This document shows positions 6,839-44,510 of a stretch of 64,000 nt of DNA, one piece after another (position 1 is the first letter of the stretch; every line of letters begins with the position of its first letter). The notes beneath the pieces were generated by a model that saw nothing but the letters and a program-made list of their open reading frames with translations, made no database searches and was not told the DNA's origin. The translations under genes and the position numbers were made by a program. The DNA is from Betaproteobacteria bacterium (GTDB lineage Bacteria; Pseudomonadota; Gammaproteobacteria; Burkholderiales; CAIKXV01): assembly GCA_947458265.1 (NCBI GenBank), contig CANGYF010000020.1, positions 1 to 64,000 of the forward strand. Direction: 5' to 3'.

Positions 6839-7037
6839 TCACTTAGTATAGACGACGCGACAGGTAGCCCGGCTGCCTGCTCATCGTCCGGCTCATGCAG
6901 GACGTGGAGGACGATGGGCCCATCGCCGCCGTCGAGATCTTCCCGGCTTCGAGCTGGCGGCGAGTTAAGCTACCCGAACAGGATAAGCCGCGCCGCATCC
7001 GGCGCCGCACGCCGGCTTACGCAACAGGAGAGGATCG

Positions 7038-8027: not shown

Positions 8028-8177
8028 GGTCCGCGCGCAGAGGCTGGCCTGTACGCCTGACGACTGCGATACCCACCTGGCCAAGTTCCATGTATCCACC
8101 AACTTTTTGCTGGACACCATCGTCGCCGGCTACCGAGGCGACGGAGGCGGAGGTGCTCTCGAACGAAAGGTTGGGCA
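8028..8177. other. Non-coding stretch at the outer edge of the integron relic
   Basis: No convincing gene. On the minus strand just after the truncated antitoxin there is GCCCAAC followed by CTTTCGTTCGAG (about 8160-8176). This fits the RYYYAAC outer core plus adjacent arm of an attC site, but I find no matching GTTRRRY half nearby, so at most it is a decayed half-site. Confidence 0.35.
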
Positions 8178-8345
8178 TCAGTCGCCCAGCAAGAACGCAA
8201 AGTCCTGTTGCGATAGCCCGGCTTTCGCACGAGCAACCGCCGCATCGGGCAACTTGACCTTGGTTACCTTGGCGGCTTTGCCTTGCCGCATCTGCCTCAC
8301 CGACGTGAGCAAGTTTTGCTGAAACTTGTTGAGCTCAGAGGACAC
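8178..8345 (-). pseudogene. Truncated HigA/XRE-type antitoxin
   Basis: A GTG start at 8345, overlapping the end of the upstream toxin remnant by 11 bases, gives 55 residues: SSELNKF, then SVRQMRQGKAAKVTKVKLP and AGLSQQDFAFLLGD before TGA. This matches the N-terminal half of small antitoxins of the HigA/XRE type, whose helix-turn-helix normally continues (LGVSxRTLxxWEQG). Here it ends exactly at the point where the second helix should begin, so DNA binding is almost certainly lost. It lay in an operon with the RelE-like toxin remnant. Too short and unusual in start to appear in the ORF track. Confidence 0.7.
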
Positions 8346-8649
8346 CTTCAATCTCCCGCTTCAGCTGTGCCAGGAACGTTGTCGGAAGGTCGTCGAACTT
8401 CGCCTTCGTATAGACGATGAGTAGCCAGATCGTCGAGTCGTCCGCGTTGAAGTAGATGATCCTCGCACCACCGCTCTTCCTGCGACCAGAGGCACCCTAA
8501 CGCACTTTTCGACAGCTGCCGCTGCCGCGAATCAATGCACCAGCCTCGGGATTGAAGGCGACGTACGAAATGAACTGCTCGCGCTCGGTCGCGCTCCACA
8601 CCTCAGCGGCGGCGACGGCGTGTCGTGGCGGGTCCGTTTCAGCGACAGG
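8335..8649 (-). pseudogene. RelE/HigB-type toxin remnant with in-frame amber stop and lost N-terminus
   Basis: The minus-strand frame reads AEVWSATEREQFISYVAFNPEAG, then GSGSCRKVR, TAG, then GASGRRKSGGARIIYFNADD and TIWLLIVYTKAKFDDLP, ending KREIEGVL-TGA. This is a RelE/HigB-family toxin in a single frame interrupted only by TAG at 8497-8499, where homologues have Trp (TGG to TAG). No start codon is available: upstream the frame meets TAA at the end of the DUF5615 gene, and about the first 12 family residues are replaced by attC-like DNA. The 83-aa ORF in the track (8348-8599) is a wrong-frame reading of the same remnant. Confidence 0.78.
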
Positions 8650-8655
8650 TTAAGC
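8605..8655 (-). repeat. Partial attC site after the DUF5615 cassette
   Basis: Directly at the stop of the DUF5615 gene the minus strand reads GCTTAAC (RYYYAAC outer core), then CTGTCGCTGAAACGGACC, typical of an attC left arm. No complementary right half or GTTRRRY follows; the toxin remnant begins instead. This looks like the point where the cassette array was cut and joined to other DNA. Confidence 0.5.
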
Positions 8656-8973
8656 ATCAGCGATAACGACATAGCTGCCTCTAACAAGTTGGGCGAGTTC
8701 TCGTTCAACCGCAGGGACGAGCGGGAGCAGGTACCGTAGTTCGTTCGACACTGCATTCATCACCAGCACCGCTACAGGAAGCGATGTCGTGTTCTGCTGA
8801 TATGGCAAATTTTTGTCAACGGTAACTAGCGCATCAAAGCGCTGCGCGGCCAGGGCGAGCAATTGACCGTTCTTTACGCCTGCCCAGCCTTCAAGCACAA
8901 CCGTCGAGACTTCGTGCGAGACGAACGCGCGGCGGAGACGGACCGGAACACACTCGTCAAGCAACAGGCGCAT
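8650..8973 (-). CDS. DUF5615 PIN-like protein (putative toxin of a DUF433/DUF5615 module)
   Basis: 107 aa from the ATG at MRLLLDECVP; the ORF-track start ten codons upstream is less likely because family members begin here. The acidic motif LLLDECVP, then VTVDKNLPYQQ and a hydrophobic VAVLVMNAVSN strand, match the DUF5615 family, a PIN-like nuclease fold. It overlaps the end of the DUF433 gene by 17 bases, the usual arrangement for this predicted toxin-antitoxin pair. The pair occupies one integron cassette, reading away from the integrase. Toxicity is predicted from family context only. Confidence 0.82.
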   Translation of the reverse strand: MRLLLDECVPVRLRRAFVSHEVSTVVLEGWAGVKNGQLLALAAQRFDALVTVDKNLPYQQNTTSLPVAVLVMNAVSNELRYLLPLVPAVERELAQLVRGSYVVIADA

Positions 8974-9175
8974 CGGCTGCCAAGCCTTCGCGCGCAGCTT
9001 CAAGAACGGCCACGGCCTGCACGCGCGTTATGGACGGAAAGTCCTCGAGAAAGTCTTCAAGGGACGACGCGCCCTCGAGATAGTCGAAGAGGTTCTTCAC
9101 CGGCACGCGGGTACCTGTGAAACACAGGGCGCCGCTCATGATTTCCGGGTCGCGGCTGACGAGAGATGCATCCAT
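8957..9175 (-). CDS. DUF433 antitoxin-like protein
   Basis: 72 aa, starting at the ATG (MDASLVSRDPEIM) that follows AGGAGG at a six-base spacing; the track's TTG start would place the ribosome site inside the gene. The family signature is clear: SGALCFTGTRVPVKNLFDYLEG, then SLEDFLEDFPSI and a helical AVAVLEAAREGL tail. DUF433 proteins have a small winged-helix-like fold and pair with DUF5615 or VapC-like nucleases. The gene is the first of a two-gene integron cassette; its start lies about 57 bases after the attC inner core GTTAAGC. Confidence 0.85.
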   Translation of the reverse strand: MDASLVSRDPEIMSGALCFTGTRVPVKNLFDYLEGASSLEDFLEDFPSITRVQAVAVLEAAREGLAADAPVA

Positions 9176-9231
9176 TACGGCCTCCTTTGCCAAAGTCTAC
9201 CCTCAGGAGCTGGCCCGGCGCTGGATCTGAT

Positions 9232-9327
9232 GCTTAACGTGGAGGTGAGAGGCGGCCGGAGCGCGAAGCGCAGAGGGAACCTGCAAGCGCAGCTTGCAGG
9301 GCGTCCGCCTCGACCGCCATGTTAGCC
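9232..9327 (-). repeat. Integron attC site (cassette carrying the RelE/ParE pair)
   Basis: On the minus strand, GGCTAAC overlaps the toxin stop codon and GTTAAGC (a perfect GTTRRRY) closes the site 96 bases on. The arms GGCGGTCGAGGCGGACG and GCCGCCTCTCACCTCC are imperfectly complementary, and a central hairpin (CTGCAAGC/GCTTGCAG) is present. Orientation is correct for cassettes reading away from the integrase. Confidence 0.82.
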
Positions 9328-9624
9328 GTCATTTAGCCGTGACTTCCAATAGCCTGGCCGGCGGCGAAACGCAGCGACTGCCAAGACCACGATCTCGCCT
9401 TCGAAGGTTGAGTAGACGAGGGAGAACTTGAACTTCCGGTCCAAAATGCGCCGCGTGTTGTACAGGTACTTCGGCCAGCGATCAGGCGACTCAGCTGCCC
9501 GAACTTCGCAAGCGAGGACAGCTCTGTCGAAACGCTCGCTGAGTGCGGGGCTCAATGCTAAGTAGTACTCGATTTCGCGCAGAAACTCGGCGCTTGCATC
9601 CGGGTGATATCGGACCGCTCTCAC
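9322..9624 (-). CDS. RelE/ParE family toxin
   Basis: 100 aa, the usual length for the family. It has the pattern HPDASAEFLREIEYY, DRAVLACEVRAAESPDRWP, then RRILDRKFKFSLVYST and a terminal strand IVVLAVAAFRRRPGYW, the ParE-like fold ending. ParE members poison gyrase and RelE members cleave ribosome-bound mRNA; the sequence alone does not decide. The start overlaps the stop of the antitoxin by four bases (ATGA), so the two are translationally coupled, and its stop codon is part of the attC outer core. Appears intact. Confidence 0.88.
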   Translation of the reverse strand: MRAVRYHPDASAEFLREIEYYLALSPALSERFDRAVLACEVRAAESPDRWPKYLYNTRRILDRKFKFSLVYSTFEGEIVVLAVAAFRRRPGYWKSRLNDG

Positions 9625-9854
9625 CGACGGATCAGGCGTCTGGCTTCGGCATGAACGTCTTCAGAGCTGACCAGAGCGACCGAACCCGATTCCACCTCAG
9701 CTACACGGCGCTGGATTTCGCGGTCCCACGCAGCGTCAACTTCAGAGTCAGGCTCTTGGTCCAGCGACGCCAGCAGTTCTTCCGCGAGGCGCGCCCGGTC
9801 TTGGACGGACAGGGTCTTCGCTCGCGCCGACAATTCATCGACAAGGGTAGTCAT
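9621..9854 (-). CDS. Addiction-module antitoxin (TIGR02574-like)
   Basis: 77 aa from the ATG reading MTTLVDELSARAKTL, preceded by GGAG at 9 bases. The sequence LSVQDRARLAEELLASLDQ, followed by DAAWDREIQRRVAEVESG and SSEDVHAEARRLIRR, is the standard pattern of short helical antitoxins paired with ParE-like toxins. The conserved AW and R(R/V)AE positions are present. It is the first gene of its cassette, after the inner attC core of the preceding site, and is coupled to the toxin by a four-base overlap. Confidence 0.86.
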   Translation of the reverse strand: MTTLVDELSARAKTLSVQDRARLAEELLASLDQEPDSEVDAAWDREIQRRVAEVESGSVALVSSEDVHAEARRLIRR

Positions 9855-9916
9855 GGCAGTCTCCAACCGTTGTGGCACTTTTTTACCGCTCGTGCGAGCG
9901 CTGCGGCATCTATGAC

Positions 9917-10030
9917 GGTTAACGCAGAGTTGAGCGGACGCCGCCAGCGGCGCCCCGCGAGACGGAGAATAAACGAGCGCCGTATCGCGGGGCGCCGCTG
10001 GTGGCGTTCCGTTCGAACGTCGGGTTAGCC
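9917..10030 (-). repeat. Integron attC site (HNH nuclease cassette)
   Basis: Minus strand: GGCTAAC at the HNH gene stop, GTTAACC at the far end, 114 bases in all. A long stem lies between them (CAGCGGCGCCCCGCGA pairs with TCGCGGGGCGCCGCTG), with about 25 unpaired bases in the loop. Outer arms are GAACGGAACGCC and GGCGTCCGCTC. Confidence 0.85.
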
Positions 10031-10471
10031 GTCATTGGCTGCCTCCCGCAGTACTGCCTCTGGGGCTTGACGTTCCGTGGTCTCAGCGCTGCCGTCACTC
10101 GCGAAATAGCCGAGGGAATGCGGCGCCGGTGCGGCAACCTTGTTCAACAAACCTGCCGCAACTGCAGCGATCGTGTCCGGGCCTATGCCTCGCGTTTGGC
10201 AGTACTTGGACTTAAGCCAATCGCCGAGATTCTTCGTTCCCTTGCTCGAATTGCACCCGATACAGCAAAGAGCGATGTTCTCGAGAGTGACGATCGACTC
10301 ATCGTTGATGATGTGCTCCCAGGACGCCAAGCCCGCCCGGGGACCCGACATTTCAGCGGCGAAGTCTCGGCTGCAATAGATGCAGCGCAGATCACGCGCG
10401 AGAACCGCCAGCGCCAGATCGCGTGGAACCTTCCAGCGTGCAGCCGCGCGGACCAGCAGCGTGTGGTTCAT
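10025..10471 (-). CDS. HNH endonuclease (integron cassette gene)
   Basis: 148 aa. A zinc-ribbon HNH core is visible: CIYC at about residue 31, WEHIIND as the first catalytic box, TLENIALCCIGCNSSKG with the second Cys pair and the Asn/Lys box. It resembles stand-alone HNH nucleases found in cassettes and phage-related DNA; its substrate is unknown and it could be a restriction-like or defence nuclease. It starts five bases after the inner core of the preceding attC site, so there is little room for its own promoter; expression probably depends on read-through. No partner methylase or immunity gene is present. Confidence 0.85.
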   Translation of the reverse strand: MNHTLLVRAAARWKVPRDLALAVLARDLRCIYCSRDFAAEMSGPRAGLASWEHIINDESIVTLENIALCCIGCNSSKGTKNLGDWLKSKYCQTRGIGPDTIAAVAAGLLNKVAAPAPHSLGYFASDGSAETTERQAPEAVLREAANDG

Positions 10472-10474
10472 GAC

Positions 10475-10603
10475 GGATAACGTTCGAGGTAACCTGCCCG
10501 CGAAGGCAGGACTTGTAAGCCCAGACTGAGACGATAGTACGACTGGCTCAAGCCGGGCTTACAAGGCCTGCCGTAGCGGGTCAGGTTGACCGAGGGGTTA
10601 GGC
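10475..10603 (-). repeat. Integron attC site (first cassette)
   Basis: Minus strand GCCTAAC (perfect RYYYAAC) to GTTATCC, 129 bases. Long complementary arms are obvious: GGCAGGCCTTGTAAGCCCGG against CTGGGCTTACAAGTCCTGCC, plus GTCAACCTGACCCGC against GCGGGCAGGTTACC. The unpaired centre is about 25 bases. Confidence 0.87.
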
Positions 10604-10644
10604 CGCACTTGGCACAGTTGCATGCCTTGCTCTTTTGGCAGCAA

Positions 10645-11073
10645 CTAGACCGAGGCAGCGCAGCGCGCACTTTGACCCTGTAGGCGATTTACTGCGCGGA
10701 TGAGAGCCTGATAGTCGTCGGAGTACGTTTTCGGTGGCGAGAACGAGGGGATGTATACGTTGTAGCTCTTCTCTCCGACTTCCAGTGTGAGCCAAGCGTT
10801 CACCGTCAAGTCTTCTCCCCGCGGGTTATCGATAGTCCATTTCTCTCTTGGAAACTCGAAGAAGTACATGACTTGGCCCTTGTCAGTTACCCATTCAGTC
10901 TTTGTCCTAGCTCCGACCGCCCGCGCAATTGGTTCAAGCTCCTTCCTAAGTCTGCGAAGGTACAAGTGAACTCGCAGGTAGCGCACACCTGGAAAAGCCG
11001 TGAAGAAGAGTACCCCCGAGAGCAGGGCTAGCCCCACAGCCGTACTAGCCACGAGTTCAACGGCGCTATTCAT
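10645..11073 (-). CDS. Hypothetical membrane-anchored protein (first integron cassette)
   Basis: 142 aa using the ATG at MNSAVELV. The longer track start (11154) would lie outside the cassette boundary at 11115-11121, so it is rejected. One N-terminal membrane segment (about residues 9-28, GLALLSGVLFFTAF) is followed by a basic stretch (RVHLYLRRLRKEL) and a soluble domain with WVTDKGQVMYFFEFPREKW and VNAWLTLEVGEKSYNVYIP. I do not recognise the family. The DNA is visibly more AT-rich than the flanking chromosome, as expected for an acquired cassette. Being next to attI, it is the most recently inserted cassette and the one most likely to be transcribed. Confidence 0.7.
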   Translation of the reverse strand: MNSAVELVASTAVGLALLSGVLFFTAFPGVRYLRVHLYLRRLRKELEPIARAVGARTKTEWVTDKGQVMYFFEFPREKWTIDNPRGEDLTVNAWLTLEVGEKSYNVYIPSFSPPKTYSDDYQALIRAVNRLQGQSARCAASV

Positions 11074-11114
11074 GGGATTGGAGGTGCGCGTGCGCAGGGA
11101 GGCGTTTCTGTGCG

Positions 11115-11255
11115 GCCTAACGTGATTTAGGGAGACGAAGATGTCGGTTACCACCGCCGACTGTCGCCCTAATTCGGCGTCCGACCGGGTGTTTTTCTCG
11201 CTTCACGCCCACAGCTTACGTGAACTAGGCTGGTTGTTTCCATGGATAACCCGCC
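11115..11255 (-). other. attI-like region between integrase and first cassette
   Basis: Lies between the integrase start and the first cassette. On the minus strand it ends with GTTAGGC (11115-11121), a perfect GTTRRRY crossover core preceding the first cassette gene. No second attC-type arm is present, as expected for attI. Promoters for the integrase and the array should lie here but I cannot identify them confidently. Confidence 0.6.
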
Positions 11256-12048
11256 ATGAAAGCCGGCAAGCTGCCGCTCCCGCCGTTGCAGTCCGCCAAG
11301 TTGCTGGATCAGGTACGAGAGCGGGTGCGTTATCTGCATTACAGCCCGCGTACCGAGCAGGCCTACGTCTACTGGGCGCGGGTCTTCATCCGTTTCCACG
11401 ACCGTCGCCATCCCGCCACCATGGGCGGTCCGGAAGTCGAGCTGTTCCTGTCCTGGCTGACGAACAAGCGCAAGGTATCGGCCTCGACACACAAGCAGGC
11501 GCTTTCGGCGCTGCTGTTCCTGTACGGCAAGGTGCTCGGCGTGGACCTGCCCTGGATGTCCCGCGTCGATCGGCCACGCGGGCCGAAGCGATTGCCCGTG
11601 GTGCTGTCGCCCGACGAACTGACTCAGATCTTCGCCACGATGGAGGGCGAGCACCGCCTGTTCGCGCAACTGCTCTACGGAACCGGCCTGCGTATCAGCG
11701 AAGGCCTGCGGCTTCGGGTGAAGGACGTCGACTTCGAGCGCCGCGCGATCGTGGTGCGCGAGGGCAAGGGCGGGAAGGACCGGGTGGTGATGCTGCCGCT
11801 GAGCCTGGTGCCGGCGCTGCGGGCCCAGCTCGCACGCGCCGCGGCGCTGTGGCGTGCGGACAACGCGTCCGGGCGCGGCGGCGTCGAGATGCCGGAACGG
11901 CTACGACATCCGCACAGTGCAGGAGCTCCTCGGCCATGAGGACGTGTCGACCACGATGATCTACACGCATGTGCTCAACGTCGGCGGCGGCGGGGTGCGC
12001 AGCCCGGTGGATGTCTTGCCGGCGCCGTCGACTGCGCATCCAGAGTGA
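11256..12048 (+). pseudogene. intI: Integron integrase IntI with internal deletion and frameshift
   Basis: The first frame (11256 to about 11893) is a clear integron integrase: [44 protein letters not shown] with the first catalytic Arg, and [15 protein letters not shown] with the catalytic Lys. After GGVEMP the reading frame changes by one and resumes as [28 protein letters not shown], which supplies the box III His and the nucleophile Tyr. About 70 residues are missing between the two parts, including the HxLRHSFAT box II and the IntI-specific helix region. Recombinase activity must be lost. It points away from the cassettes, the classical integron layout. Confidence 0.88.
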
Positions 12049-12060
12049 GCCCAGTCCTCT

Positions 12061-13056
12061 TCAGTCCGGCTTGATCCCGCTCGCCTGCACCACCTTCGTC
12101 CAGCGCGCGAAATCCTCGCGGATGAACGTGCCGAACGCCTCGGGCGTGCCGCCCTGCGCTTCGACGCCCATCTGCGCGAAGCGCTCCCTCACCTGCGCCG
12201 TGCCCAGGGCCTTGACCGCCGCGGCATGCAGCCGCTGCACGATGGGTGCCGGCAGCGCGGCCGGACCGAGCAGGCCGGTCGCGTTGGCGATATCGAAGTC
12301 CTTCAGGCCGGCCTCGGCGAAGCCGGGCACGTCCGGCAGCGAGGCCATCCGGTTGCGCCCGGAGACAACCAGCCCGCGCATCTTGCCGCTGCGGACGTTA
12401 CCGCTGGCCGTCGATCCCTGGTCAAACAGCATGTCGATCTGGCTACCCATCACATCGGTGGCAGCCAGCGCCGCGCCCTTGTACGGGATGTGCAGGAACT
12501 TCACGCCAGTGAGCATCTGGAACAGCTCGCCCACCAGCTGGTTCGACGAGCCGGTGCCGCCGGAGCCCATGGTCAGCGTGCCCGGCTTCTCGCGCGCGAG
12601 CTTCAGCAGTTCGGCAACGTTCTGCGCCGGCAGGCCGCTGCGCACCACCAGCACGAACGGTGAGGTCTGCAGGTTGATGATCGGGGTGAAGTCGCGCACC
12701 GGGTTGTATGGCGCGTTCGGGTACAGCGCTGGCACGACGCTGAACGTGCTGTTGGATCCGGTGAGCAGAACGTAGCCGTCCGGCGCAGCCTTGGCCACCA
12801 CCTCGGCACCGACCATGCCGCCGGCGCCGGTGCGGTTCTCGACCACGATCGGCTGGCCGAGCGTGTCCGCCATCGCGGGGGCGACCAGCCGTGCGGTCAG
12901 GTCGACGTTGCCGCCGGCGGCGAACGGCACGATCAGGCGAATCGGCTTGGACGGCCAGGCGGGTGCGGGCTGTGCCGATGCGGCCGGGATCGACGCCGTG
13001 GACGCGATGGCGGTTGCGACAAGCGCCAGCGCGAGCGCGGGCATGGGCTGCTTCAT
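12061..13056 (-). CDS. Bug/TctC family periplasmic substrate-binding protein
   Basis: 331 aa from ATG 13056 (MKQPMPALALALVAT), which has GGGGGAG eight bases upstream; the track's 56-residue extension overlaps the intergenic region and is rejected. Signal peptide to about residue 29 (AASAQ), then WPSKPIRLIVPFAAGGNVDLT, VVENRTGAGGMVGAEVVAKAAPDGYV and HIPYKGAA. The ligand is not predictable. It follows the alpha/beta hydrolase gene by 76 bases on the same strand, so it may deliver a substrate or its precursor to that enzyme. The convergent integron relic ends 12 bases from its stop codon. Confidence 0.92.
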   Translation of the reverse strand: MKQPMPALALALVATAIASTASIPAASAQPAPAWPSKPIRLIVPFAAGGNVDLTARLVAPAMADTLGQPIVVENRTGAGGMVGAEVVAKAAPDGYVLLTGSNSTFSVVPALYPNAPYNPVRDFTPIINLQTSPFVLVVRSGLPAQNVAELLKLAREKPGTLTMGSGGTGSSNQLVGELFQMLTGVKFLHIPYKGAALAATDVMGSQIDMLFDQGSTASGNVRSGKMRGLVVSGRNRMASLPDVPGFAEAGLKDFDIANATGLLGPAALPAPIVQRLHAAAVKALGTAQVRERFAQMGVEAQGGTPEAFGTFIREDFARWTKVVQASGIKPD

Positions 13057-13132
13057 GGTGACTCCCCCGTTGGACAGCGCGCTGCCGCGCGCTCGATGTA
13101 CTGCGAGATCTGCTTCGTGGTGCAGGGCCTGG

Positions 13133-14305
13133 TTACGGCAGGTCTGCGAGCGGGTCCAGGAGCGTGTCTGCGATCCAGTCCGCGATGTAGTCGACGCCGA
13201 GCTGCCGGTTGTCGAGCTGCACATGATAGGTACCGCCCTCTTCCTCGGTGAATATCTTCAGGTGCTTGCGTTTCGACCCGATGGCGTCGAAAACCTTGTG
13301 TGCAGACGTGACCGGCACGACCTTGTCCTTCTCTCCGTGCACGATCAGGAAGGGCATCGTGATGTCCTTGGCCACCTCGGCGAGGGTAAAGCCGCGCGCC
13401 TTCTCGATCGCGGCATCCAGTGTATCGGTGCCCATCACCCAGCGGAAGTGGAACGCCGACTGCGGCGTGGACTTCGGGTCGGCGTCCTGCCGGCGCTTGA
13501 TCTCGAGCTGCCAGGCATGCAGGTCCCAGTGCAGCGCGGCGAAGGCGACGCCTGCGGCATAGCGCTGGTCGAACGCGGCGACGCGCCCGGCGTAGTAGCC
13601 GCCGAAGCTGTACCCCATCACCACCACCTTCGAGCCGTCGACCTCGGGCCGGGCGGCGACCCAGTCAAAGGCAGCACGGCCAGGCACTTCGTAGTCGAAG
13701 CGCGCGGAGAGGTCGCGCAGCCGCAGCGACTCGCCCTGCCCCGGCCCGTCGATCGCGAGCGTGTGGAAGCCACGGGCCGCGAATTCGAGCCCGTTGAACA
13801 GCACGCTCATCTCCTTGCAGTTGTCCATGCCGTCGAACACGACCACGGTCGGTGCCGGCCCGGTCACGCCCGGCGCCTTCAGGAACCAGGCGGGCAGCGA
13901 GCCGCCCTCGTACGGAACCTCGACCCGCTCGATGTTCGGGTAGCGCCGCACCAGCCCCTTGCCCTGGCAGTCGAGCGACTTGCGGCCGAGTTCGCGCTTC
14001 TGTTCGCCCGGCTCGACGAAACGTTCGGCCGTGAAGTAGTACATGCCAGCGCGCAGGTAGAAGTTGCCGGCGGTCATCCGGTGACCTGCAGCCTCGGCGG
14101 CATCGGCGCGCGCTTCCAGACGCACCGCCATGCGTTCCCACTCTTCACGGAAGGCGTCGGGCTCGGTCTGACGCTCGCGCAGCCGGTCGCAGACCTCGTC
14201 GATCTCGCCCATCGCCACGCATCCGTAGGGCGCCATTCCCTTGCAGATCAGCGTTGCGTTCGACCAGGTCATGTTGCCCGGGAATTCCTCGATCCAGCGG
14301 CCCAT
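13133..14305 (-). CDS. Alpha/beta hydrolase, similar to 2,6-dihydroxypseudooxynicotine hydrolase / FrsA-like group
   Basis: 390 aa. A helical N-terminal cap (residues 1-125) is followed by the hydrolase core: FDGMDNCKEM, the turn GQGES, the nucleophile elbow GYSFGG (Ser about 242), the acidic HGEKDKVVP and the histidine in GGTYHVQLDNR. The long helical N-terminus and the DGMD oxyanion loop match carbon-carbon hydrolases of the dihydroxypseudooxynicotine type and related FrsA-like enzymes. No signal peptide, so cytoplasmic. Substrate unknown. It heads a likely two-gene unit with the Bug protein downstream. Confidence 0.82.
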   Translation of the reverse strand: MGRWIEEFPGNMTWSNATLICKGMAPYGCVAMGEIDEVCDRLRERQTEPDAFREEWERMAVRLEARADAAEAAGHRMTAGNFYLRAGMYYFTAERFVEPGEQKRELGRKSLDCQGKGLVRRYPNIERVEVPYEGGSLPAWFLKAPGVTGPAPTVVVFDGMDNCKEMSVLFNGLEFAARGFHTLAIDGPGQGESLRLRDLSARFDYEVPGRAAFDWVAARPEVDGSKVVVMGYSFGGYYAGRVAAFDQRYAAGVAFAALHWDLHAWQLEIKRRQDADPKSTPQSAFHFRWVMGTDTLDAAIEKARGFTLAEVAKDITMPFLIVHGEKDKVVPVTSAHKVFDAIGSKRKHLKIFTEEEGGTYHVQLDNRQLGVDYIADWIADTLLDPLADLP

Positions 14306-22101: not shown

Positions 22102-22791
22102 ATGCCCGCCACCATACTGGTCGTCGAAGACGAACCCGCGATTCAGGAACTGATCGCCTACAACCTGCGCCAGGCCGGGCACGAGCCGCTGCGCGCGGAC
22201 ACCGCCGAGCGGGCGCTCGAACTGGTGCGCGACGCCCTGCCCGACCTGGTGCTGCTCGATTGGATGCTGCCCGGGCAGTCCGGCATCGAGTTTGCGCGGC
22301 GGATGAAGGCCGACCGGCGCACCCGCGAGGTGCCGATCATCATGCTTACCGCCCGGGCGGAGGAACAGGACAAGCTGATGGGCCTGGAAACCGGTGCCGA
22401 CGACTACATCACCAAGCCGTTTTCACCGCGCGAACTCAATGCGCGCATCAAGGCGGTGCTGAGGCGCCGGGCTCCCGAGGCGACCGACGACCGGGTCGAG
22501 ATCGGCGGACTGCAGATCGATCCGGCCAGCCACAGGGTCACGGCCGGAGACTTGCCGGTGGTGCTAGGGCCGACCGAGTTCCGGCTGCTGCATTACCTGA
22601 TGACCCATGCCGAGCGGGTGCACTCGCGGGTGCAGTTGCTCGACCAGGTGTGGGGCGACCACGTCTTCGTCGAGGAGCGCACGGTCGATGTCCACATCCG
22701 GCGCCTGCGCAAGGCACTGGAGCCGTCAGGGCACGACTCACTGGTGCAGACGGTGCGCGGAAGCGGCTACCGACTGTCCGCGGCTCCGTAG
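22102..22791 (+). CDS. phoB: PhoB, phosphate-responsive response regulator
   Basis: 229 aa from ATG 22102 ([22 protein letters not shown]). Receiver domain with Asp about 54 in [13 protein letters not shown], Thr in [10 protein letters not shown] and Lys in [11 protein letters not shown]; then an OmpR/PhoB winged helix ([51 protein letters not shown]). LLDWMLPG and the VDVHIRRLR helix are typical of PhoB. It is followed 76 bases later by phoR on the same strand, the standard phosphate-starvation pair. The track's upstream extension overlaps the divergent gene and is rejected. Confidence 0.94.
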
Positions 22792-22867
22792 TGCTGGCAC
22801 ACCTCAGGCGCAGCGCAACGTAGAATCGGAGATCCCGGCAAGGGAGGCGATCGAGGAAGGAGCCGAG

Positions 22868-24205
22868 GTGCGCGGATACTGGCGGGGAGCAGCAGGATGG
22901 CTCGCCCTGTGGCTTGCGTTCACGGCCATCGCAGCAGCTGTCTTGGGCCCGTTGACCGCGCTTGTGGGGCTGGTCTGCTGGTTGCTCCTGCTGCATGCAC
23001 GCCAACTGTGGCACATGGATGCGCTGCTGCGCTGGCTCGACGGCGCACCTGGCACGCCGGTACCGCATGGCTCGGGCATCTGGGCCGAGGCGTTCTCCTA
23101 CCTGGCCAGGCTGGTGCGACGCCAGCGGCAGGACGAGGCCGACCTGCGGAGCGCGCTCGAACGCTTCCAGAGCGCGACCGCCGCGATGAACGAGTCGGTG
23201 ATCATCCTCGACGAACTCGACCGCATCGAATGGTGCAATCCGAGCGCGGAGCACTATTTCGAGATAGATGCGCGGCGCGACATCGGACGCCAGCTGACCT
23301 ACATCGTGCGCCAGCCGCAGTTCGTCGAATACCTCGACGAACAGAACTTCGCCGAACCGTTCGCGCTGCGCGGAGCGCGCGGCGGCGAAACCACGCTGTC
23401 GGTGCAACTGGTGCCCTATGGCAACCAGCAGAAGCTGGTGATCAGCCGTGACGTCACGCGCTGGGAGCGGCTGGAGGCCATGCGCCGCGACCTGGTGGCC
23501 AACGTCTCGCACGAGCTGCGCACCCCGATCACGGTGCTCGCCGGTTATCTCGAGACGCTGAACGATATGGAAGTCCCGGATCCGATTTTCCAGAAGCGCG
23601 CGATGCAGCTGATGACGCAGCAGACCAGCCGCATGCAGAACCTGGTCGAGGACCTGCTGACGCTGTCGCGGCTGGAGAACGCGCGCGGGCCCTCGGCGGA
23701 GCAGCCGGTAGACGTGCCGCGGCTGGTGCAAGGACTGCACCACGAAGCGACCGCGCTGTCCGCAGGCCGGCACAAGTTCACGCTGGACGTCGATGCCGAG
23801 CTCTGGCTGACCGGGGCCGAGGCCGAACTGCGCAGCGCCTTCCTCAACCTTGTCACCAATGCGATCCGCTACACCCCGGCACGCGGCCGGATCACGATCC
23901 GCTGGCGGCCGACGCAGGATGGCGGAGGCGCGTTCTCGGTCGTCGACACCGGCATCGGCATCGCGCCCGAGCACATCCCGCGGCTGACCGAACGCTTCTA
24001 CCGCGTCGATCGCAGCCGGTCGCGCGAGACCGGCGGCACCGGGCTGGGCCTGGCCATCGTGAAGTACGCGCTGTCGCACCACCAGGCCCGGCTCGAGATT
24101 GACAGCGAACCGGAGCAGGGCAGCACGTTCAGCGCGATCTTCCCGGCCCGCCGTGTCTGCACGGCACCGGTGGCTGTGGCTGCGGCGGCCCCCGTAAGGG
24201 CCTAG
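22868..24205 (+). CDS. phoR: PhoR, phosphate regulon sensor histidine kinase
   Basis: 445 aa using GTG 22868, chosen because GGAAGGAG precedes it; the track's longer start lies inside phoB. Two N-terminal membrane segments (LALWLAFTAIAAAVLG and LTALVGLVCWLLLL), a PAS domain (about 95-195, SVIILDELDRIEWCNPSAEHYF), HisKA with LVANVSHELRTPITVL, and HATPase boxes NLVTNAIRYTPA, DTGIGIAPEHIPRLTERFYRVD and GGTGLGLAIVK. This is the PhoR layout with short membrane hairpin and cytoplasmic PAS. It overlaps the convergent HIT gene by four bases. Confidence 0.93.
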   Translation: MRGYWRGAAGWLALWLAFTAIAAAVLGPLTALVGLVCWLLLLHARQLWHMDALLRWLDGAPGTPVPHGSGIWAEAFSYLARLVRRQRQDEADLRSALERFQSATAAMNESVIILDELDRIEWCNPSAEHYFEIDARRDIGRQLTYIVRQPQFVEYLDEQNFAEPFALRGARGGETTLSVQLVPYGNQQKLVISRDVTRWERLEAMRRDLVANVSHELRTPITVLAGYLETLNDMEVPDPIFQKRAMQLMTQQTSRMQNLVEDLLTLSRLENARGPSAEQPVDVPRLVQGLHHEATALSAGRHKFTLDVDAELWLTGAEAELRSAFLNLVTNAIRYTPARGRITIRWRPTQDGGGAFSVVDTGIGIAPEHIPRLTERFYRVDRSRSRETGGTGLGLAIVKYALSHHQARLEIDSEPEQGSTFSAIFPARRVCTAPVAVAAAAPVRA

Positions 24206-33437: not shown

Positions 33438-33526
33438 TTATAGCGGGCCGGGGCTCGCATCCCCCTGTGCCTGCCGGCGCATCCGCAACGGGCCCCGCGC
33501 AATACCGGATACCCGTGGAGAACTGG

Positions 33527-34513
33527 ATGACCCTGCCGTACCCTGCCTGCACCCACCGTCCTTCGACCGGCACGGACGACGAAGGCCCCACCCCCGTCAG
33601 GGCTCGCCGCCGGCTGCTGATGCTGCTGCCTTGCCTCTGGCCGGTACCCGGCCTGCTGGCATCCGGGGATGCAGCGGCGCAGTCCTCCGGGGCGCGCGAC
33701 GATGCCTGGGTGGCGGCGGTGCAGATGCCGGCCTGGATCGAACGCGCCGGCGTGCGCACGCCACTTTCGCCTGGCACGGTGCTGCGCATCGGCGACGTGG
33801 TGCTGACCGGCGCCGGTGGCCGGGCGCAGGTGCGCCTGGCCGAGGGCAGCCTGGTGCGGCTGGGCGAATCGGGGCGGCTGGCGTTGAGCGACCTGCGCGT
33901 GGCGCGTGGGCCATCAACGGTGCTGTCCGGACTGCTCGACATCGCGCAGGGCGCGTTCCGCTTCACCACCGCCGTCGTGCAACGCGCGAGCAGCGAACGA
34001 GACCTGCAGGTCCGCATCGCGACGGTCACCGTTGGCGTACGCGGCACCGATCTCTGGGGCCGCGGCACTGCCGAGCGCGAAATCGTCTGCCTGATCGAAG
34101 GCCGTATCACCGTGACCCGCGGCAACGAGGCTCCGATCGAGATGAACGACCCGCTGTCGTTCTTCATTGCCCCGACGGGCGCGCCCGCGCTGCCGGTGGC
34201 GCCCGTCGACGCGCAGCAGCTCGCCCAGTGGACGCGCGACACCGATCCGGTCGCCGGTGCCGGTGCCGCAGTGCCGGGCGGTCGCTGGCGGGTCAGCGTT
34301 CTGCGCAGCGACGACCAGGAGGAAGCCCTGAAGTCATTCGATGCGCTGCGCGAGGCCGGGTTCGATGCCCGCATCCGAAGCACGCGCAGCGACGCCGGCG
34401 CGACCTACGAGGTCCGCATCGGCAACCTGTCGACGCAGGCCGAGGCCCGCGGGCTGGCCAGACGCCTGGCCGGGCAACCCGGCGTGAGCGGCGAACCGCA
34501 GGTCGGGCGCTGA
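33527..34513 (+). CDS. FecR-domain protein with C-terminal SPOR domain
   Basis: 328 aa from ATG 33527, preceded by GGAG. After a charged lead (RARRR) comes a signal segment (LLMLLPCLWPVPGLLASGDAAAQ), a FecR domain (about 70-205: RTPLSPGTVLRIGDVVLTGAGGRAQVRLAEGSLVRLGESG, then TVTVGVRGTDLWGRG) and a SPOR domain (about 245-325: WRVSVLRSDDQEEALKSFDALREAGFDARIR, YEVRIGNLSTQAEARGLARRL). FecR domains sense or scaffold at the envelope, and SPOR domains bind denuded septal peptidoglycan, so the protein is periplasmic and may be cell-division associated. It is divergent from leuS and 194 bases upstream of the EAL operon. Confidence 0.85.
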   Translation: MTLPYPACTHRPSTGTDDEGPTPVRARRRLLMLLPCLWPVPGLLASGDAAAQSSGARDDAWVAAVQMPAWIERAGVRTPLSPGTVLRIGDVVLTGAGGRAQVRLAEGSLVRLGESGRLALSDLRVARGPSTVLSGLLDIAQGAFRFTTAVVQRASSERDLQVRIATVTVGVRGTDLWGRGTAEREIVCLIEGRITVTRGNEAPIEMNDPLSFFIAPTGAPALPVAPVDAQQLAQWTRDTDPVAGAGAAVPGGRWRVSVLRSDDQEEALKSFDALREAGFDARIRSTRSDAGATYEVRIGNLSTQAEARGLARRLAGQPGVSGEPQVGR

Positions 34514-34707: not shown

Positions 34708-37506
34708 ATGCTCACGAGTTCGAATTTCCTGCGCGGCGATGACGTACAACGGCAAGGCAGGTCTGAGCAGACCCGGCCCCGGGTCCTGATAGTCGAAGAC
34801 GAAGCGCTGATCGCATGCGACCTCGAGCGGAGGCTCGATCGCCTGGGATTCGAATCCGTCGGGATCGCCGACAACCGGGACGACGCGCTGGAGCTCTTCC
34901 GCACGACGTACCCGGACCTCGTGCTGATGGACATCTCCATCAGGGGCCCTGTCGATGGCATCGACACCGCGCGCGCGATGCTCGAGTTCGCGGATACCGC
35001 AGTTGTCTTCCTGACAGCCTATGCAGACAATGCAACCGTAGCCCGCGCGTCCGAACTGTCCCCGTACGGCTATATCGCCAAGCCGTTCGACGAACGTACG
35101 CTGGGTGCCACTTGCAAGGTGGCTGTCGCCAGGCATGCGACAGACCGTGACCTGCGCGTGCTGGCACACGTCGCCTCGCGCGCGCCGATCGGGCTGATCG
35201 TGGCCAAAGTGGTCGGCGACGAGCGGCAGATCGTCTTCGCCAATGATGCGTTCGAGCGTATCACCGGCGTGACGGTCGACAGCGTCCTGGGCCACAGGCC
35301 CGGCTTCCTCGCCGAAGAGTCGAGCGCAGCGTGCGTTGCACGCCTCGCTGCGGCCGTCGACAACCTCACCGAAGCGCGGGAGACGATTCAGGGCTGGCGT
35401 CCGGACGGGCAACCGATGTGGAGCCTCATCAGCGTGTCTCCGGTCGTCGGTCCGACCGTACGAGCCAGCCACCTGGTCATCCTGTACGCCGACGTCACCG
35501 GCGAGCGGCAGGCCATGGACGCGGTTGCCGAGCTCCAGCACACCGAACTGGTCGGCCGCTTCTCGGCCGCCATCTGCAACGACTTCAACAACTTCCTCTC
35601 GGTCGTGCTGTCGTACGCAAACCTCGTTTTGCATGCGGTGAACGATCCCGACGTCCAGCACGATGTCGGGCAGATCGTGATGGCAGCCGGCAAGGGCATG
35701 TCGCTGACACGGCAACTGCTCGACTTCGCGCGCTTCGACGAAAAGCCGGTGGCTGCGCATACCGACCTGTCGATCGCGATCCGGGATGCGCGCACGAGGC
35801 TGAAGGTGATTGCCGGACCTGCATGCCGGGTACGGTTCGAACTGCCCGAAGATCCGATCTGGATCCGGCTGTCCACCGAATCGATCGAACAGATCCTCCT
35901 GAACCTTGTCGCCAACGCACGGGATTCGATGCCCGATGGCGGAGCGATCTTCATCACCGCCTTCTGGCCAGGCGAGCCGTCCAAGAGGCCGGGGGCTGGT
36001 GCAAACATCCGGATCGAGGTCAGCGACACCGGCTCCGGCATCGATCCAGCCATCCTGGATCGTGTATTCGAACCCTTCTTCACCACCAAGCCCCGCGATC
36101 TCGGCAGCGGCCTGGGGCTGGCACGCTGCCGCATGCTGGTCGAACGCGCGGGCGGCAGCATCCGCCTGCTCGGCGCCGAGGGCGGCGGAACGAAAGCCGT
36201 GATCGAACTGCCGACCGTCGAGGAGCCGGCAACGGACACGGCAGGCTCGTCGCTGCAGCTGGCGGCCGTGAACGCGCACGGGGCTTCATGCCTGCTGATC
36301 GTGCCAGACGAATCCCTCCGCGCGGCCTATGCGCGTGCGCTTTCGATGGTGGGATTCGCGGTGACCGAAGCGTCGTCTGGACAGGCTGCGATCGAGATGA
36401 TCGACGTGCTCGGCAACACGCTCGACCTGCTGGTCTGCACCGCGTTCCTGCCACCGGGACCGGTCGAGAAGGGGCTCGAGGTTGCTGCGCGAGCACGCAT
36501 CGCCTCGCCGGCATGCCGTGCGATCGTCGCCACCGGGGTCACGGATCGGTTTGATGCCCCGCCCGGGGACCATGTCCGCCTCGTGGACATGCCGCTGAGC
36601 GGCTGGACGCTTGCCCGCCACGCGCTGGAGTTGCTGGGCGCCAGCTCGAACGGTCCGAAGCCTGGCTACGGTGCAGCCAGGATGGCTGAACCAGGTGGCG
36701 CGTCCGAGGCAGAGGCCGCTGCTGCGCTGGCCTTGCCGGGCGAGAGCCGCACAGGCGTGCCGTCGGAGGCGCTCGCCGTCGCGACCGCCGAAATCGAAGC
36801 CGTCGGCCGGGCCTTCGAGGAAAGCCTCGCTTGCCTGCACGTACTGTTCCAGCCCATCGTGCACGCCAACGACGGCTCGCCTTACGGCCACGAGGCGCTG
36901 ATGCGCAGCCTCGGGCCGCTCAAGCGGCCCTCCGAACTGCTCGCCGCGAGCGAGCGCCTGGACCGGGTCGAGGATCTCGGCCGTACCGTCCGGCGATGCA
37001 TCGCCGAGGCCATTTCGAATGACCCTGGCCTGAACCACTGGATCTTCGTGAACCTTCATCCGAAGGAGTTCAGGTCGGGCCTCCTCACGGGACTCGATGA
37101 GCCGCTGCTGCCCTTCGCGTCGCGGATCGTATGGGAAGTGACGGAGCGCGACCAGCTGTCCTATTCGAACGAAATCGCGAACACCCAGCAGGCGCTGAAA
37201 GCGGCCGGCTATCGGGTGGCTATCGACGACCTGGGCGAAGGTTACGCAAGCCTCTCCTGGCTGGTCAGGTTCGTACCCGACATCGCGAAGCTCGACCTGT
37301 CCCTCGTGCGCGGCATCGACCAGTCGCAGATCAAGCGCGACCTCGTGCGCGCGATCGTGGACGCATGCCACAGAAGCGGCACGCTCGTGGTGGCCGAAGG
37401 AGTCGAGACGCTCGAGGAGGCGGCGGTGCTGCGCGACCTCAACTGCGACCTGCTGCAGAGCCATCTCTTTGCGCGGCCGGCGCCGCCGTTCGCCGACTTT
37501 GGATAA
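34708..37506 (+). CDS. REC-PAS-kinase-like-pseudoREC-EAL hybrid c-di-GMP signalling protein
   Basis: 932 aa, soluble. Order: receiver (26-140, intact Asp in LVLMDISIRG, Lys in YIAKPFDE), PAS (150-270), a HisKA-like helix, HATPase (about 380-515), a second receiver-like domain (530-650) and EAL (about 700-930). In the HisKA segment the usual AHDFNN is CNDFNN: the phospho-accepting His is Asn (about residue 291). The ATPase boxes are intact (NLVANARD, DTGSGI, FEPFFTTK, GSGLGLA). The second receiver has CTAFLPPG, so it lacks its Asp. The EAL domain looks active: HEALMRS, NLHPKEF, WEVTERDQ, AIDDLGEGYASL, IAKLDLSLV, VAEGVET, QSHLFARP. It should hydrolyse c-di-GMP under control of the receiver. First gene of a three-gene operon. 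Confidence 0.9.
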   Translation: MLTSSNFLRGDDVQRQGRSEQTRPRVLIVEDEALIACDLERRLDRLGFESVGIADNRDDALELFRTTYPDLVLMDISIRGPVDGIDTARAMLEFADTAVVFLTAYADNATVARASELSPYGYIAKPFDERTLGATCKVAVARHATDRDLRVLAHVASRAPIGLIVAKVVGDERQIVFANDAFERITGVTVDSVLGHRPGFLAEESSAACVARLAAAVDNLTEARETIQGWRPDGQPMWSLISVSPVVGPTVRASHLVILYADVTGERQAMDAVAELQHTELVGRFSAAICNDFNNFLSVVLSYANLVLHAVNDPDVQHDVGQIVMAAGKGMSLTRQLLDFARFDEKPVAAHTDLSIAIRDARTRLKVIAGPACRVRFELPEDPIWIRLSTESIEQILLNLVANARDSMPDGGAIFITAFWPGEPSKRPGAGANIRIEVSDTGSGIDPAILDRVFEPFFTTKPRDLGSGLGLARCRMLVERAGGSIRLLGAEGGGTKAVIELPTVEEPATDTAGSSLQLAAVNAHGASCLLIVPDESLRAAYARALSMVGFAVTEASSGQAAIEMIDVLGNTLDLLVCTAFLPPGPVEKGLEVAARARIASPACRAIVATGVTDRFDAPPGDHVRLVDMPLSGWTLARHALELLGASSNGPKPGYGAARMAEPGGASEAEAAAALALPGESRTGVPSEALAVATAEIEAVGRAFEESLACLHVLFQPIVHANDGSPYGHEALMRSLGPLKRPSELLAASERLDRVEDLGRTVRRCIAEAISNDPGLNHWIFVNLHPKEFRSGLLTGLDEPLLPFASRIVWEVTERDQLSYSNEIANTQQALKAAGYRVAIDDLGEGYASLSWLVRFVPDIAKLDLSLVRGIDQSQIKRDLVRAIVDACHRSGTLVVAEGVETLEEAAVLRDLNCDLLQSHLFARPAPPFADFG

Positions 37507-37524
37507 CCAATCAGGAGAGTGAAC

Positions 37525-38670
37525 TTGCACGACCAGCCAGGCGACGGGAACCACGGAATGCATGTTGTCCACCTCCCGGACAGCGACCTGCCGGCATTGC
37601 GGCGCGGTCTCGCCTCCCTGGTGGAAGCCGGCGCGCAGTCCGTGCAGTTCCTCGGCGCGATAGACGACCAATGGACACCGGAGGGACTCGACCCGATCAT
37701 CGCCGGGCTTGGAATACCGATGTTCGGAGGACTGTTCCCCGGCGTGCTCTTCGAAGGCAAGGCCTGCAAGCGCGGCGCGGTGCTGATCGGACACCCGGTC
37801 CGCACGCGCGTCGTGGCGATCGACATCTCCGGGACTGACGCGCCCCCGCAGGACTGGACGCAGCACCTCGACGGCCTGCACACCATCATCGCGTACCTTG
37901 ACGCCACCTGCTCCAGCGGACACCTGATGCGTGCGTTGTTCGATGCCAGGGGCACGAATGCGACCTGGTGCGGTGGCGGTGCTGGCGGACTCGACTTCGT
38001 CCGCCGCCCGGCGTTGATCACGCCGGAGGGCCTGCGCGCCGGCGTAGCCGTGCTCGCCGGCCTCGACACGACCACGCAGCTGGGCGTGACTCATGGATGG
38101 AAGCCGTTCGGCGATCCCCTGCTGGTCACGGAGTCGCGGGGTAACGACATCGTCACGCTCGACTGGCGCCCGGCGCTCGAGGTCTATCGTGAAGCGGTGG
38201 AACACCACTCCGGGACGCGCTTCGAGCAGCGGGACTTCTTCGAGCTTGCAAGCCGCTTCCCGCTGATGATCGAGCGCTTCGGCGCTGAAGGCGTCGTGCG
38301 CGATCCGCTGTCGAAGCTCGACGACGGCGCAATACGGTGCGCTGGCGACATTCCCGAGCATTCGACCGTGCGGGTAGCCACCGGCGGCTTCGAGGACATG
38401 ATCGAAGCCGCCGCGCGTGCCAAGGAGCAGGCTACCGCATCCGTCGCGCCAGCCGCCGGCACCGTCGCCCTCACCATCGACTGCATCTCGCGCGCGTTGC
38501 TGCTCGGCGACCGTCTTTCGGACGAGCTGGACGTAATGCGCGTCCCCGGAGTACCCCAGGCAGGGGCCCTGACGATCGGGGAAATCGCGAGCAGTTCGAA
38601 CCACTTCCTCCAGGTGCACAACAAGACCACCGTACTGGCGATGATCGCCCCCGGCAGCGGCGCCTCATGA
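37525..38670 (+). CDS. FIST-domain sensor protein, possibly NosP-like
   Basis: About 381 aa. The TTG at 37525 has AGGAG at seven bases; the GTG six bases upstream (track start) is too close to it. FIST_N covers about 20-215 (QSVQFLGAIDDQWTPEGLDPII, MFGGLFPGVLFEGKAC, TWCGGGAGGLDF, THGWKPFGDPLLVTES) and FIST_C about 225-370 (REAVEHHSG, ALTIDCISRALLLGDRL, GALTIGEIASS, NKTTVLAMI). FIST proteins are cytoplasmic small-ligand sensors; the stand-alone type of this length includes NosP, a haem-binding NO sensor that controls a partner kinase. Haem binding here is inference. It sits 18 bases after the EAL gene and overlaps the kinase gene by four bases. Confidence 0.88.
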   Translation: MHDQPGDGNHGMHVVHLPDSDLPALRRGLASLVEAGAQSVQFLGAIDDQWTPEGLDPIIAGLGIPMFGGLFPGVLFEGKACKRGAVLIGHPVRTRVVAIDISGTDAPPQDWTQHLDGLHTIIAYLDATCSSGHLMRALFDARGTNATWCGGGAGGLDFVRRPALITPEGLRAGVAVLAGLDTTTQLGVTHGWKPFGDPLLVTESRGNDIVTLDWRPALEVYREAVEHHSGTRFEQRDFFELASRFPLMIERFGAEGVVRDPLSKLDDGAIRCAGDIPEHSTVRVATGGFEDMIEAAARAKEQATASVAPAAGTVALTIDCISRALLLGDRLSDELDVMRVPGVPQAGALTIGEIASSSNHFLQVHNKTTVLAMIAPGSGAS

Positions 38671-42023: not shown

Positions 42024-42052
42024 CGCCGGCCCGGCATGCCGACCCGTATAAT
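42020..42052 (+). promoter_or_regulatory. Possible uvrD promoter
   Basis: A perfect TATAAT (42047-42052) lies 10 bases before the uvrD ATG, with TTGACG 21 bases upstream, overlapping the kinase stop codon. The spacer is longer than the usual 17, so the -35 is doubtful. A start point this close would give a nearly leaderless mRNA. Confidence 0.35.
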
Positions 42053-42062
42053 CCGCGGCGCC

Positions 42063-44510
42063 ATGCAAAGCAGACTGCTCGAAAACCTGAACCCGGAACA
42101 ACTCGCCGCAGTCACGCTGCCGCGCGAGTCCGCGATGATCCTGGCCGGTGCAGGCAGCGGCAAGACGCGCGTGCTCACGACGCGCATTGCCTGGCTGATC
42201 GAGACGCGGCAGGTCAATCCGCTCGGGCTGCTCGCGGTCACCTTCACCAACAAGGCCGCGCGCGAGATGCTGACCCGCATCTCGGGCATGCTGCCGATCA
42301 ACACCCGCGGCATGTGGGTAGGCACCTTCCACGGCCTTGCCAACCGCATGCTGCGCGCCCACCACCGGGACGCCGGCCTGCCGCAGACCTTCCAGATCAT
42401 GGACACCGCCGACCAGGTGGCGATGGTCAAGCGGATGATGAAGGCCAACGGCGTCGACGAAGAACGCTTCAAGCCGCGCGACACCGCCTGGTTCATCAGC
42501 GCCCAGAAGGACGCCGGGTTGCGGCCCGGCTCGGTCGAGGCGTTCGACGACCACACCCGGCAACTGGTCGAGATCTACCGGATGTACGAGGCGCAGTGCC
42601 AGCGCGAGGGCGTCACCGACTTCGCCGAACTGATCCTGCGCAGCTATGAACTGCTGGCGAAGAACGAGGCGATCCGCGAACACTACCGGGCGCGCTTCGC
42701 GCACATCCTGGTCGACGAGTTCCAGGACACCAACCGGCTGCAGTTCGACTGGCTGAAGCTGATCGCAGGCAGCCAGAACGCGGTGTTCGCGGTGGGCGAC
42801 GACGACCAGTCGGTGTACAGCTTCCGCGGCGCGAAGGTCGCGAACATGCGCGACTTCGAGCGCGAGTTCAACGCCGGCACGATCATCAAGCTCGAACAGA
42901 ACTACCGCTCGCACGGCAACATCCTCGAAGCCGCCAATGTGCTCATCGGGCACAACCAGCAGCGGCTGGGCAAGAACCTGTGGACTTCAGAGTCGCAGGG
43001 CGAGCCGATCCGCCTGTTCGAGGCACAGACCGACTTCGAGGAGGCGCAGTTCATCGTCGAGCAGGTGCGCGACCTCAAGGCGACCGGCGTGCCGCTGGTC
43101 GAGGTCGCGCTGCTCTACCGTTCGAACGCACAGTCGCGGGTGCTCGAACATGCGCTGTTCTCGGCCGGCCTGCCCTACCGCGTGTACGGCGGCCTGCGCT
43201 TCTTCGAGCGCCAGGAGATCAAGCATGCACTGGCCTACCTGCGGCTGGTCGCCAACCCGGACGACGATGCCGCGCTGCTGCGGGTGATCAACTTTCCGAC
43301 GCGCGGCATCGGTGCGCGTTCGATCGAGCAATTGCAGGACGCCGCGCGTGCCGGCGGCACCAGCCTGTGGCAGGCCGCCTGCTCACGCGGCGGTTCGAAA
43401 GGCGGCGCCTCGGATGCCCCGAAGAAGGGCATAGAAGGCTTCGTGCTGCTGGTCGACCGGCTGCGCAACGAGTGCAGCGGCATCACCCTGCCCGAGATGA
43501 TCGAGGCGGTGATCGAACGCTCCGGGCTGCGCACGCACTACGAGGCCGAGCGCGAAGGCGCCGACCGCATCGCCAACCTCGACGAACTGGTCAACGCAGC
43601 CGCGCAGTTCTCGGACGACCCGATGCGCATGCTCGAGATGGAGGCCGATGCCGAGTCCTTCGCCTCGCAGGGCCCGACCGCGCTGGCCGCCGCGAGGCAG
43701 GCAGCGGGCACGCTGGACGCGGACGCCGTCGAGGCGGAAGCCGATGCCGCGATGATGGCTGCGGGCTTCGAGGACATGGCCGGCATGGGGCCGGGCGGCT
43801 TCGACGGTGACGGTGAAGGTGACGGCGCCGGCGACGGCGGGACGCCTGCGAATGCCGGCGGTGGTGTGGAGTCAGTCGAGCCAGCCGACCAGTTGCTCAT
43901 CCAGTTCCTGTCCCACGCCTCGCTGGAAGCCGGGGATAACCAGGCCAACGCCGGCGACGACGCACTGCAGCTGATGACGGTGCATGCGGCCAAGGGCCTC
44001 GAGTTCCACGCCGTGTTCGCCAGCGGCCTCGAGGAAGGCCTGTTTCCGCACGAGAACAGCCTGGATGATGCCGGCGGCGTCGAGGAGGAACGGCGGCTGA
44101 TGTACGTGGCAGTCACGCGCGCCCGTCGCCGGCTGTACCTCACCTTTGCCCAGAGCCGGATGCTGCACGGCCAGACGCGCTACAACGTCGCCTCGCGCTT
44201 CCTGCGCGAGATCCCGGTCAAGCTGCTCAAGCGGCTGTCGCCGACCTACGAACGGGGCGGCGGCTCGACCAGCTTCGACCGGCCACGTACGCCGTCGAGC
44301 TACGCCCCCGTGCAGGTGCAGGCCGCGCCCAAGGTCGAGGCCGCGGGCATGCCGTTCCGCATCGGCCAGAACGTGCGCCACGCGAAGTTCGGCAATGGCG
44401 TGATCATCGATGCCGAGGGTCGCGGCACGGATGCGCGGGTACAGGTCAACTTCGGCCGCGAGGGCGTGAAGTGGCTGGCGCTGGCTTACGCGAAGCTGGA
44501 CGCTGCGTAG
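42063..44510 (+). CDS. uvrD: UvrD, DNA helicase II
   Basis: 815 aa from ATG 42063 (MQSRLLENLNPEQLAAVTLP). SF1A helicase motifs in order: Walker A AGAGSGKTRVLTTR, VTFTNKAAREM (Ia), GTFHGLANRML, LVDEFQDTN (II), GDDDQSVYSFRGA (III), LEQNYRS (IV), MTVHAAKGLEFHAVF (V), RLMYVAVTRARRRLYL (VI). The C-terminal GxNVRHAKFGNGVI Tudor-like tail (FRIGQNVRHAKFG) is present. It unwinds DNA in nucleotide excision and mismatch repair. Between motifs IV and V there is an acidic/glycine-rich insertion (GFDGDGEGDGAGDGG) not usual in the family; probably a flexible loop in domain 2B. Confidence 0.96.
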   Translation: MQSRLLENLNPEQLAAVTLPRESAMILAGAGSGKTRVLTTRIAWLIETRQVNPLGLLAVTFTNKAAREMLTRISGMLPINTRGMWVGTFHGLANRMLRAHHRDAGLPQTFQIMDTADQVAMVKRMMKANGVDEERFKPRDTAWFISAQKDAGLRPGSVEAFDDHTRQLVEIYRMYEAQCQREGVTDFAELILRSYELLAKNEAIREHYRARFAHILVDEFQDTNRLQFDWLKLIAGSQNAVFAVGDDDQSVYSFRGAKVANMRDFEREFNAGTIIKLEQNYRSHGNILEAANVLIGHNQQRLGKNLWTSESQGEPIRLFEAQTDFEEAQFIVEQVRDLKATGVPLVEVALLYRSNAQSRVLEHALFSAGLPYRVYGGLRFFERQEIKHALAYLRLVANPDDDAALLRVINFPTRGIGARSIEQLQDAARAGGTSLWQAACSRGGSKGGASDAPKKGIEGFVLLVDRLRNECSGITLPEMIEAVIERSGLRTHYEAEREGADRIANLDELVNAAAQFSDDPMRMLEMEADAESFASQGPTALAAARQAAGTLDADAVEAEADAAMMAAGFEDMAGMGPGGFDGDGEGDGAGDGGTPANAGGGVESVEPADQLLIQFLSHASLEAGDNQANAGDDALQLMTVHAAKGLEFHAVFASGLEEGLFPHENSLDDAGGVEEERRLMYVAVTRARRRLYLTFAQSRMLHGQTRYNVASRFLREIPVKLLKRLSPTYERGGGSTSFDRPRTPSSYAPVQVQAAPKVEAAGMPFRIGQNVRHAKFGNGVIIDAEGRGTDARVQVNFGREGVKWLALAYAKLDAA

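Follow-up and report, generated by a model that had tools for sequence, protein, structure and literature searches.

A nosRPK-like operon encoding a probable c-di-GMP phosphodiesterase whose embedded kinase core lacks the phospho-histidine

In B. pseudomallei the nosRPK genes encode a signalling chain in which NosP, a FIST heme protein, modulates NosK and NosK phosphorylates NosR, a receiver protein with a c-di-GMP output domain (PMC12570481). The corresponding output protein of L. pneumophila, NarR, is a DGC-PDE (PMC8846402). Receivers of the PhyR type are in turn phosphorylated by HWE/HisKA2 kinases (PMC12148442). Here we describe a locus of this kind in a window of 64,000 nucleotides (the whole stretch of DNA that was analyzed), in which the R protein contains an additional kinase core and a second receiver that both lack their phosphorylation sites.

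The operon and its neighborhood

The features of the locus, given in positions of the window, are the following:

34708–37506, + strand: nosR-like gene, 932 aa, with the domain order REC-PAS-DHp-HATPase-pseudoREC-EAL
34783–35106, + strand: first receiver, REC1 (Response_reg, residues 26–133), intact
35182–35508, + strand: PAS domain (about residues 159–267; PAS_9, 2.7e-10)
35533–35745, + strand: DHp (HisKA-like) helices with altered H-box (HisKA 0.0044, sub-threshold)
35578–35580, + strand: codon AAC of Asn291, which by codon comparison is His (CAC) in both orthologs
35881–36216, + strand: HATPase_c (CA) domain, residues 392–503, 1.5e-21, with the N, G1, F and G2 boxes all kept
36289–36627, + strand: pseudo-receiver, Asp replaced by Thr578 and Lys by Met628, degenerate in all three orthologs
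36835–37479, + strand: EAL phosphodiesterase domain (Pfam, residues 710–924)
37519–38670, + strand: nosP-like gene, 383 aa, FIST_N and FIST_C, starting 12 bases after the nosR-like stop codon
38667–42023, + strand: nosK-like gene, a PAS/GAF sensor kinase with HisKA_2 and HATPase, its start overlapping the nosP-like stop

The initial annotation had placed the protein at 35560–37506. This interval lies within the gene but starts at residue 285, just before the H-box, and omits REC1 and the PAS domain. As read from the translation, the key residues of REC1 are all present (E30/D31, D75, T103 and K125), so that the output protein has the receiver with a phosphorylatable Asp which the NosP-NosK-NosR class requires. 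The best NCBIfam match of REC1 is a PhyR-type receiver (3e-26). The PAS domain is LOV-like by similarity and has LOV matches in the PDB. LOV photosensing was considered and rejected, since the adduct Cys is absent and GHRPGFL stands at the position of GxNCRFL(Q). In the EAL domain, aligned with BlrP1, DosP and other solved EAL domains, the metal-binding and catalytic residues are present (E729, N782, E810, D840, D841, K861, E897 and Q917), and the set is common to the ortholog. Judged by these residues, the 932-aa protein is probably a c-di-GMP phosphodiesterase. AlphaFold2 was run on the full protein with one ortholog; the mean pLDDT was 33.6 and the model was not used.

The 12-base gap between the nosR-like and nosP-like genes is followed by a 4-base overlap of the nosP-like and nosK-like genes. 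The nosK-like kinase (HisKA_2 2.9e-26, HATPase_c 1.6e-9) has kept its phospho-His motif EIHHRVKNN, and its core is best matched by PhyK. A solo FIST protein thus stands beside a histidine kinase and a receiver protein with c-di-GMP output, which is the arrangement of the NosP-NosK-NosR systems, an operon type that is already known. The three-gene block is kept in G004/L022 and L096, and the nosR-like and FIST genes in G007. When contigs were scanned with the FIST protein as query only the G004 contig was found, and a sequence search with the same protein returned no solved FIST relative.

FIST genes adjoining kinases, and FIST-EAL fusions, recur within the order. Such fusions of 1260–1315 aa were seen in three related genomes of one family (L086 4179–8126, L087 4564–8364 and L088 4687–8469), in two of them with a PAS-like match between FIST and EAL. 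The genome that contains the window has a second FIST gene (409 aa; L094, G000 contig C21, locus 2660–13676). Kinase-domain ORFs of 1430 and 1045 aa and an ORF for a receiver lie close by, and the group appears to be a further FIST-kinase cluster. Upstream of the operon a protein with FecR and SPOR domains is encoded at 33467–34513, and a similar ORF is found upstream in L010. On the other side a UvrD/Rep-type helicase gene (42036–44510) follows the kinase gene after 12 bases and is possibly co-transcribed. The window also encodes a PhoR-like sensor kinase with PAS, HisKA and HATPase at 22607–24205. Among the mechanically listed ORFs of the surroundings, several gave no match to Pfam; these are probably not genes.

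The embedded kinase core and the second receiver

Residues 290–295 of the embedded core are CNDFNN, and at the place of the acceptor His that the H-box of an active HisKA domain carries there is N291. The initial annotation had described this as a change of AHDFNN to CNDFNN. The replacement of His by Asn is borne out and is unique to this genome; the Cys, however, is common to both orthologs and represents a separate event. In the alignment with HDFNN-type kinases that had been proposed as a check, all eight hybrid kinases compared (8/8), relatives belonging to the same order or genus, keep HDFNN and the receiver Asp. The observation that the ATP-binding boxes are all retained is correct (N box NLVANARDSM, G1 DTGSGI, F FEPFFTTK, G2 GSGLGL). 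With fold and ATP boxes kept and the acceptor lost, the core has, as far as can be read from its sequence, the features of a pseudo-histidine kinase and on this reading cannot autophosphorylate at the canonical site in this species.

The second receiver is recognizable but sub-threshold (Response_reg 21 bits vs a cut-off of 30.2; 3.9e-4). The absence of its Asp, likewise reported earlier, is confirmed by Thr578 at the phospho-Asp column, and in addition the Lys column is occupied by Met628 and the first acidic position by Pro533. Across the three orthologs the Asp column holds Thr, Thr and Ala, and the Lys column Met in all. Receiver homology together with the missing phospho-Asp identifies this domain as a pseudo-receiver (PsR). 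The His is missing from 0.9% of HisKA domains and the Asp from 2.0% of receivers (PMC12632262); His-less HisKA domains and Asp-less receivers are therefore uncommon, yet not unprecedented, and form known classes.

Another histidine nearby serving as acceptor would have spoken against the loss of kinase function. H278, H309 and H318 lie near N291 and none of them is kept in both orthologs; L010 has Gln at the positions of H309 and H318. Two of the three DHp changes specific to this genome concern residues 278 and 291, which would fit a gain of a new acceptor at residue 278 while H291 was lost. However, H278 lies 13 residues upstream on a different face of the helix, where related kinases usually have Lys or Arg, and we therefore do not regard it as a substitute; that any other DHp histidine has taken over appears to us highly improbable. 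The change of residue 278 itself (35539–35541), Arg to His, is seen in this genome only and lies close to the lost H291. A search of the own genome for (H/N)DFNN(L/F) hit only the window site, so that there is no intact paralog with this exact motif as a stand-in.

The chief reservation is that Asn291 depends on a single base of one draft genome, made up of 33 contigs; both orthologs have CAC. The C to A difference at 35578 might thus reflect base-calling, assembly or a strain polymorphism, the kinase of the species being normal. Frame and context are clean, however, and the difference is a substitution and not the indel typical of long-read error, and we give such an artefact little credence.

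Orthologs and the order of the losses

Full-length orthologs were found in two other members of the genus (G004, 72% identical, and G007, 61% identical); at the thresholds applied, full-length searches of 399 genomes of the order and 369 of the class gave none beyond the genus. In a DivL-type pseudokinase the loss of the His is conserved among orthologs, whereas here both orthologs read CHDFNN. As the Cys is present in all three proteins it is ancestral to them, and as both orthologs have CAC the His was lost through a single base change that only this genome shows. Since the receiver is degenerate in all three and the His lost in one, the receiver would have died first, before the three known species separated, and the His would have been lost later, in this species only.

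This order could also result from a neutral recent loss, the kinase having become dispensable after the death of the receiver and H291N being an early stage of decay with no new function. The dN/dS of the CA domain, which is highest in the pair of the window and L009 (0.45 vs 0.32–0.36), points in the same direction. On the other hand, the His and all boxes are kept in both orthologs despite the dead receiver, the ATP boxes are intact, and there is no surplus of DHp or CA changes in this lineage: the amino acid changes specific to the window and to L009 number 3 vs 8 in DHp and 13 vs 16 in CA, counts that could, however, carry no trace of a recent loss. Pairwise dN/dS in comparisons involving the window is 0.20–0.45 in DHp and CA and 0.31–0.32 in EAL, values which are rough because synonymous distances to L010 are at least 0.76. 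Thus there is neither acceleration after the loss of the His nor general decay, the embedded core is not a pseudogene, and we consider a purely neutral loss unlikely.

According to the initial annotation the ATPase may act as a nucleotide-sensing or dimer-control module for the EAL domain. The output of known EAL phosphodiesterases depends on dimer geometry, the ATP boxes are all kept and the domain is under purifying selection; ATP or ADP in the CA domain might therefore set the state of the EAL dimer without phosphorylation. That the core is not a kinase via the canonical His agrees with the residues, and control of the EAL dimer is plausible. Nucleotide sensing, in contrast, is indicated by the retained boxes only, and in the His-bearing orthologs these boxes belong to what looks like a normal kinase; nothing that would point specifically to sensing was seen. 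As both orthologs keep the His, we are not dealing with a conserved, designed ATPase module. A His-less core such as that of DivL can moreover bind ATP poorly (PMC4211667), and altogether we hold this explanation to be improbable. The initial annotation had missed the His in both congeneric orthologs, the nosRPK-like operon with its intact kinase, and the phosphatase residues in NDFNN.

Proposed mechanism and comparison with known systems

We favor, with a probability of roughly 0.55, the reading that the protein is a NosR-type c-di-GMP phosphodiesterase whose REC1 is phosphorylated by the operon kinase and whose embedded core is a dimer scaffold and possibly a phosphatase. By analogy, the FIST protein would bind heme/NO and modulate the adjacent HisKA_2 kinase, which would phosphorylate the intact REC1. 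This pairing is suggested by family resemblance, as PhyR receivers are the nearest family to REC1 and PhyK to the kinase, and kinases of the HWE/HisKA2 type phosphorylate PhyR. Phosphorylation of REC1 would then switch the C-terminal EAL phosphodiesterase, and the DHp/CA scaffold would most likely dimerize and couple the state of the PAS domain and REC1 to the EAL dimer. In the phosphatase motif of HisKA domains an Asp and an Asn follow the His, and because NDFNN keeps both the Asp (+1) and the Asn (+4) the embedded core may also dephosphorylate REC1. HisKA domains do not need the His for phosphatase activity (PMC12632262); DivL, which has no phosphatase role (PMC4211667), is a counterexample that by analogy would argue against such a function. 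As the sign of the NO effect on c-di-GMP output varies between species (PMC12570481), the direction of the NO effect on phosphodiesterase activity is not predictable here.

It is conceivable, though we put this forward only tentatively, that the block inserted in a NosR-type phosphodiesterase is becoming stepwise (receiver, then His) a phosphorylation-free module within one genus, possibly a REC1 phosphatase or an ATP-gated clamp of the EAL dimer. If this were true, the natural His and Asn versions of one protein would allow a direct test. The finding extends to no more than three species, and within one of these to a single base, and is a lineage-specific change in a known signalling system, not a new machine. 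New is the combination of a dead receiver and a dead His with His-bearing siblings, which provides a natural before-and-after series from hybrid kinase to pseudokinase within an enzyme of c-di-GMP metabolism and links a protein that is hard to interpret by itself with a likely nitric-oxide pathway.

With BPSS1648-1647-1646 of B. pseudomallei the locus shares the gene order R-P-K, and with the nosR-nosP-nosK systems, including NosP-NahK-NarR of L. pneumophila, the solo FIST protein, the separate kinase and the receiver protein with c-di-GMP output. The R protein differs in having an EAL output and the inserted PAS-kinase-receiver block, whereas NosR of B. pseudomallei consists of REC and a degenerate HD-GYP and NarR has both GGDEF and EAL. 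The kinase is of the HisKA_2 type with PAS/GAF domains, unlike in the published nosRPK-type systems. The inserted block (residues 157–613) matches the PRK13557-type PAS-kinase-receiver hybrid kinases (NF010076) with 1.7e-70, which is far below the curated cut-off. It has their domain order but differs in the dead second receiver, the lost His, the absent LOV Cys and its position between REC1 and EAL. As in Caulobacter DivL, the phospho-His has given way to another residue with the H, N, G1, F and G2 boxes still in place, and a PAS domain lies upstream; the Tyr of DivL, however, is conserved in its orthologs, whereas here a single species shows the replacement, in a core that is joined to REC1 and EAL. 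Finally, the second receiver resembles the PsR of ShkA and CikA, being a receiver without Asp and Lys inside a kinase-containing protein that may bind the DHp and restrain the kinase, but unlike these it precedes an EAL domain.
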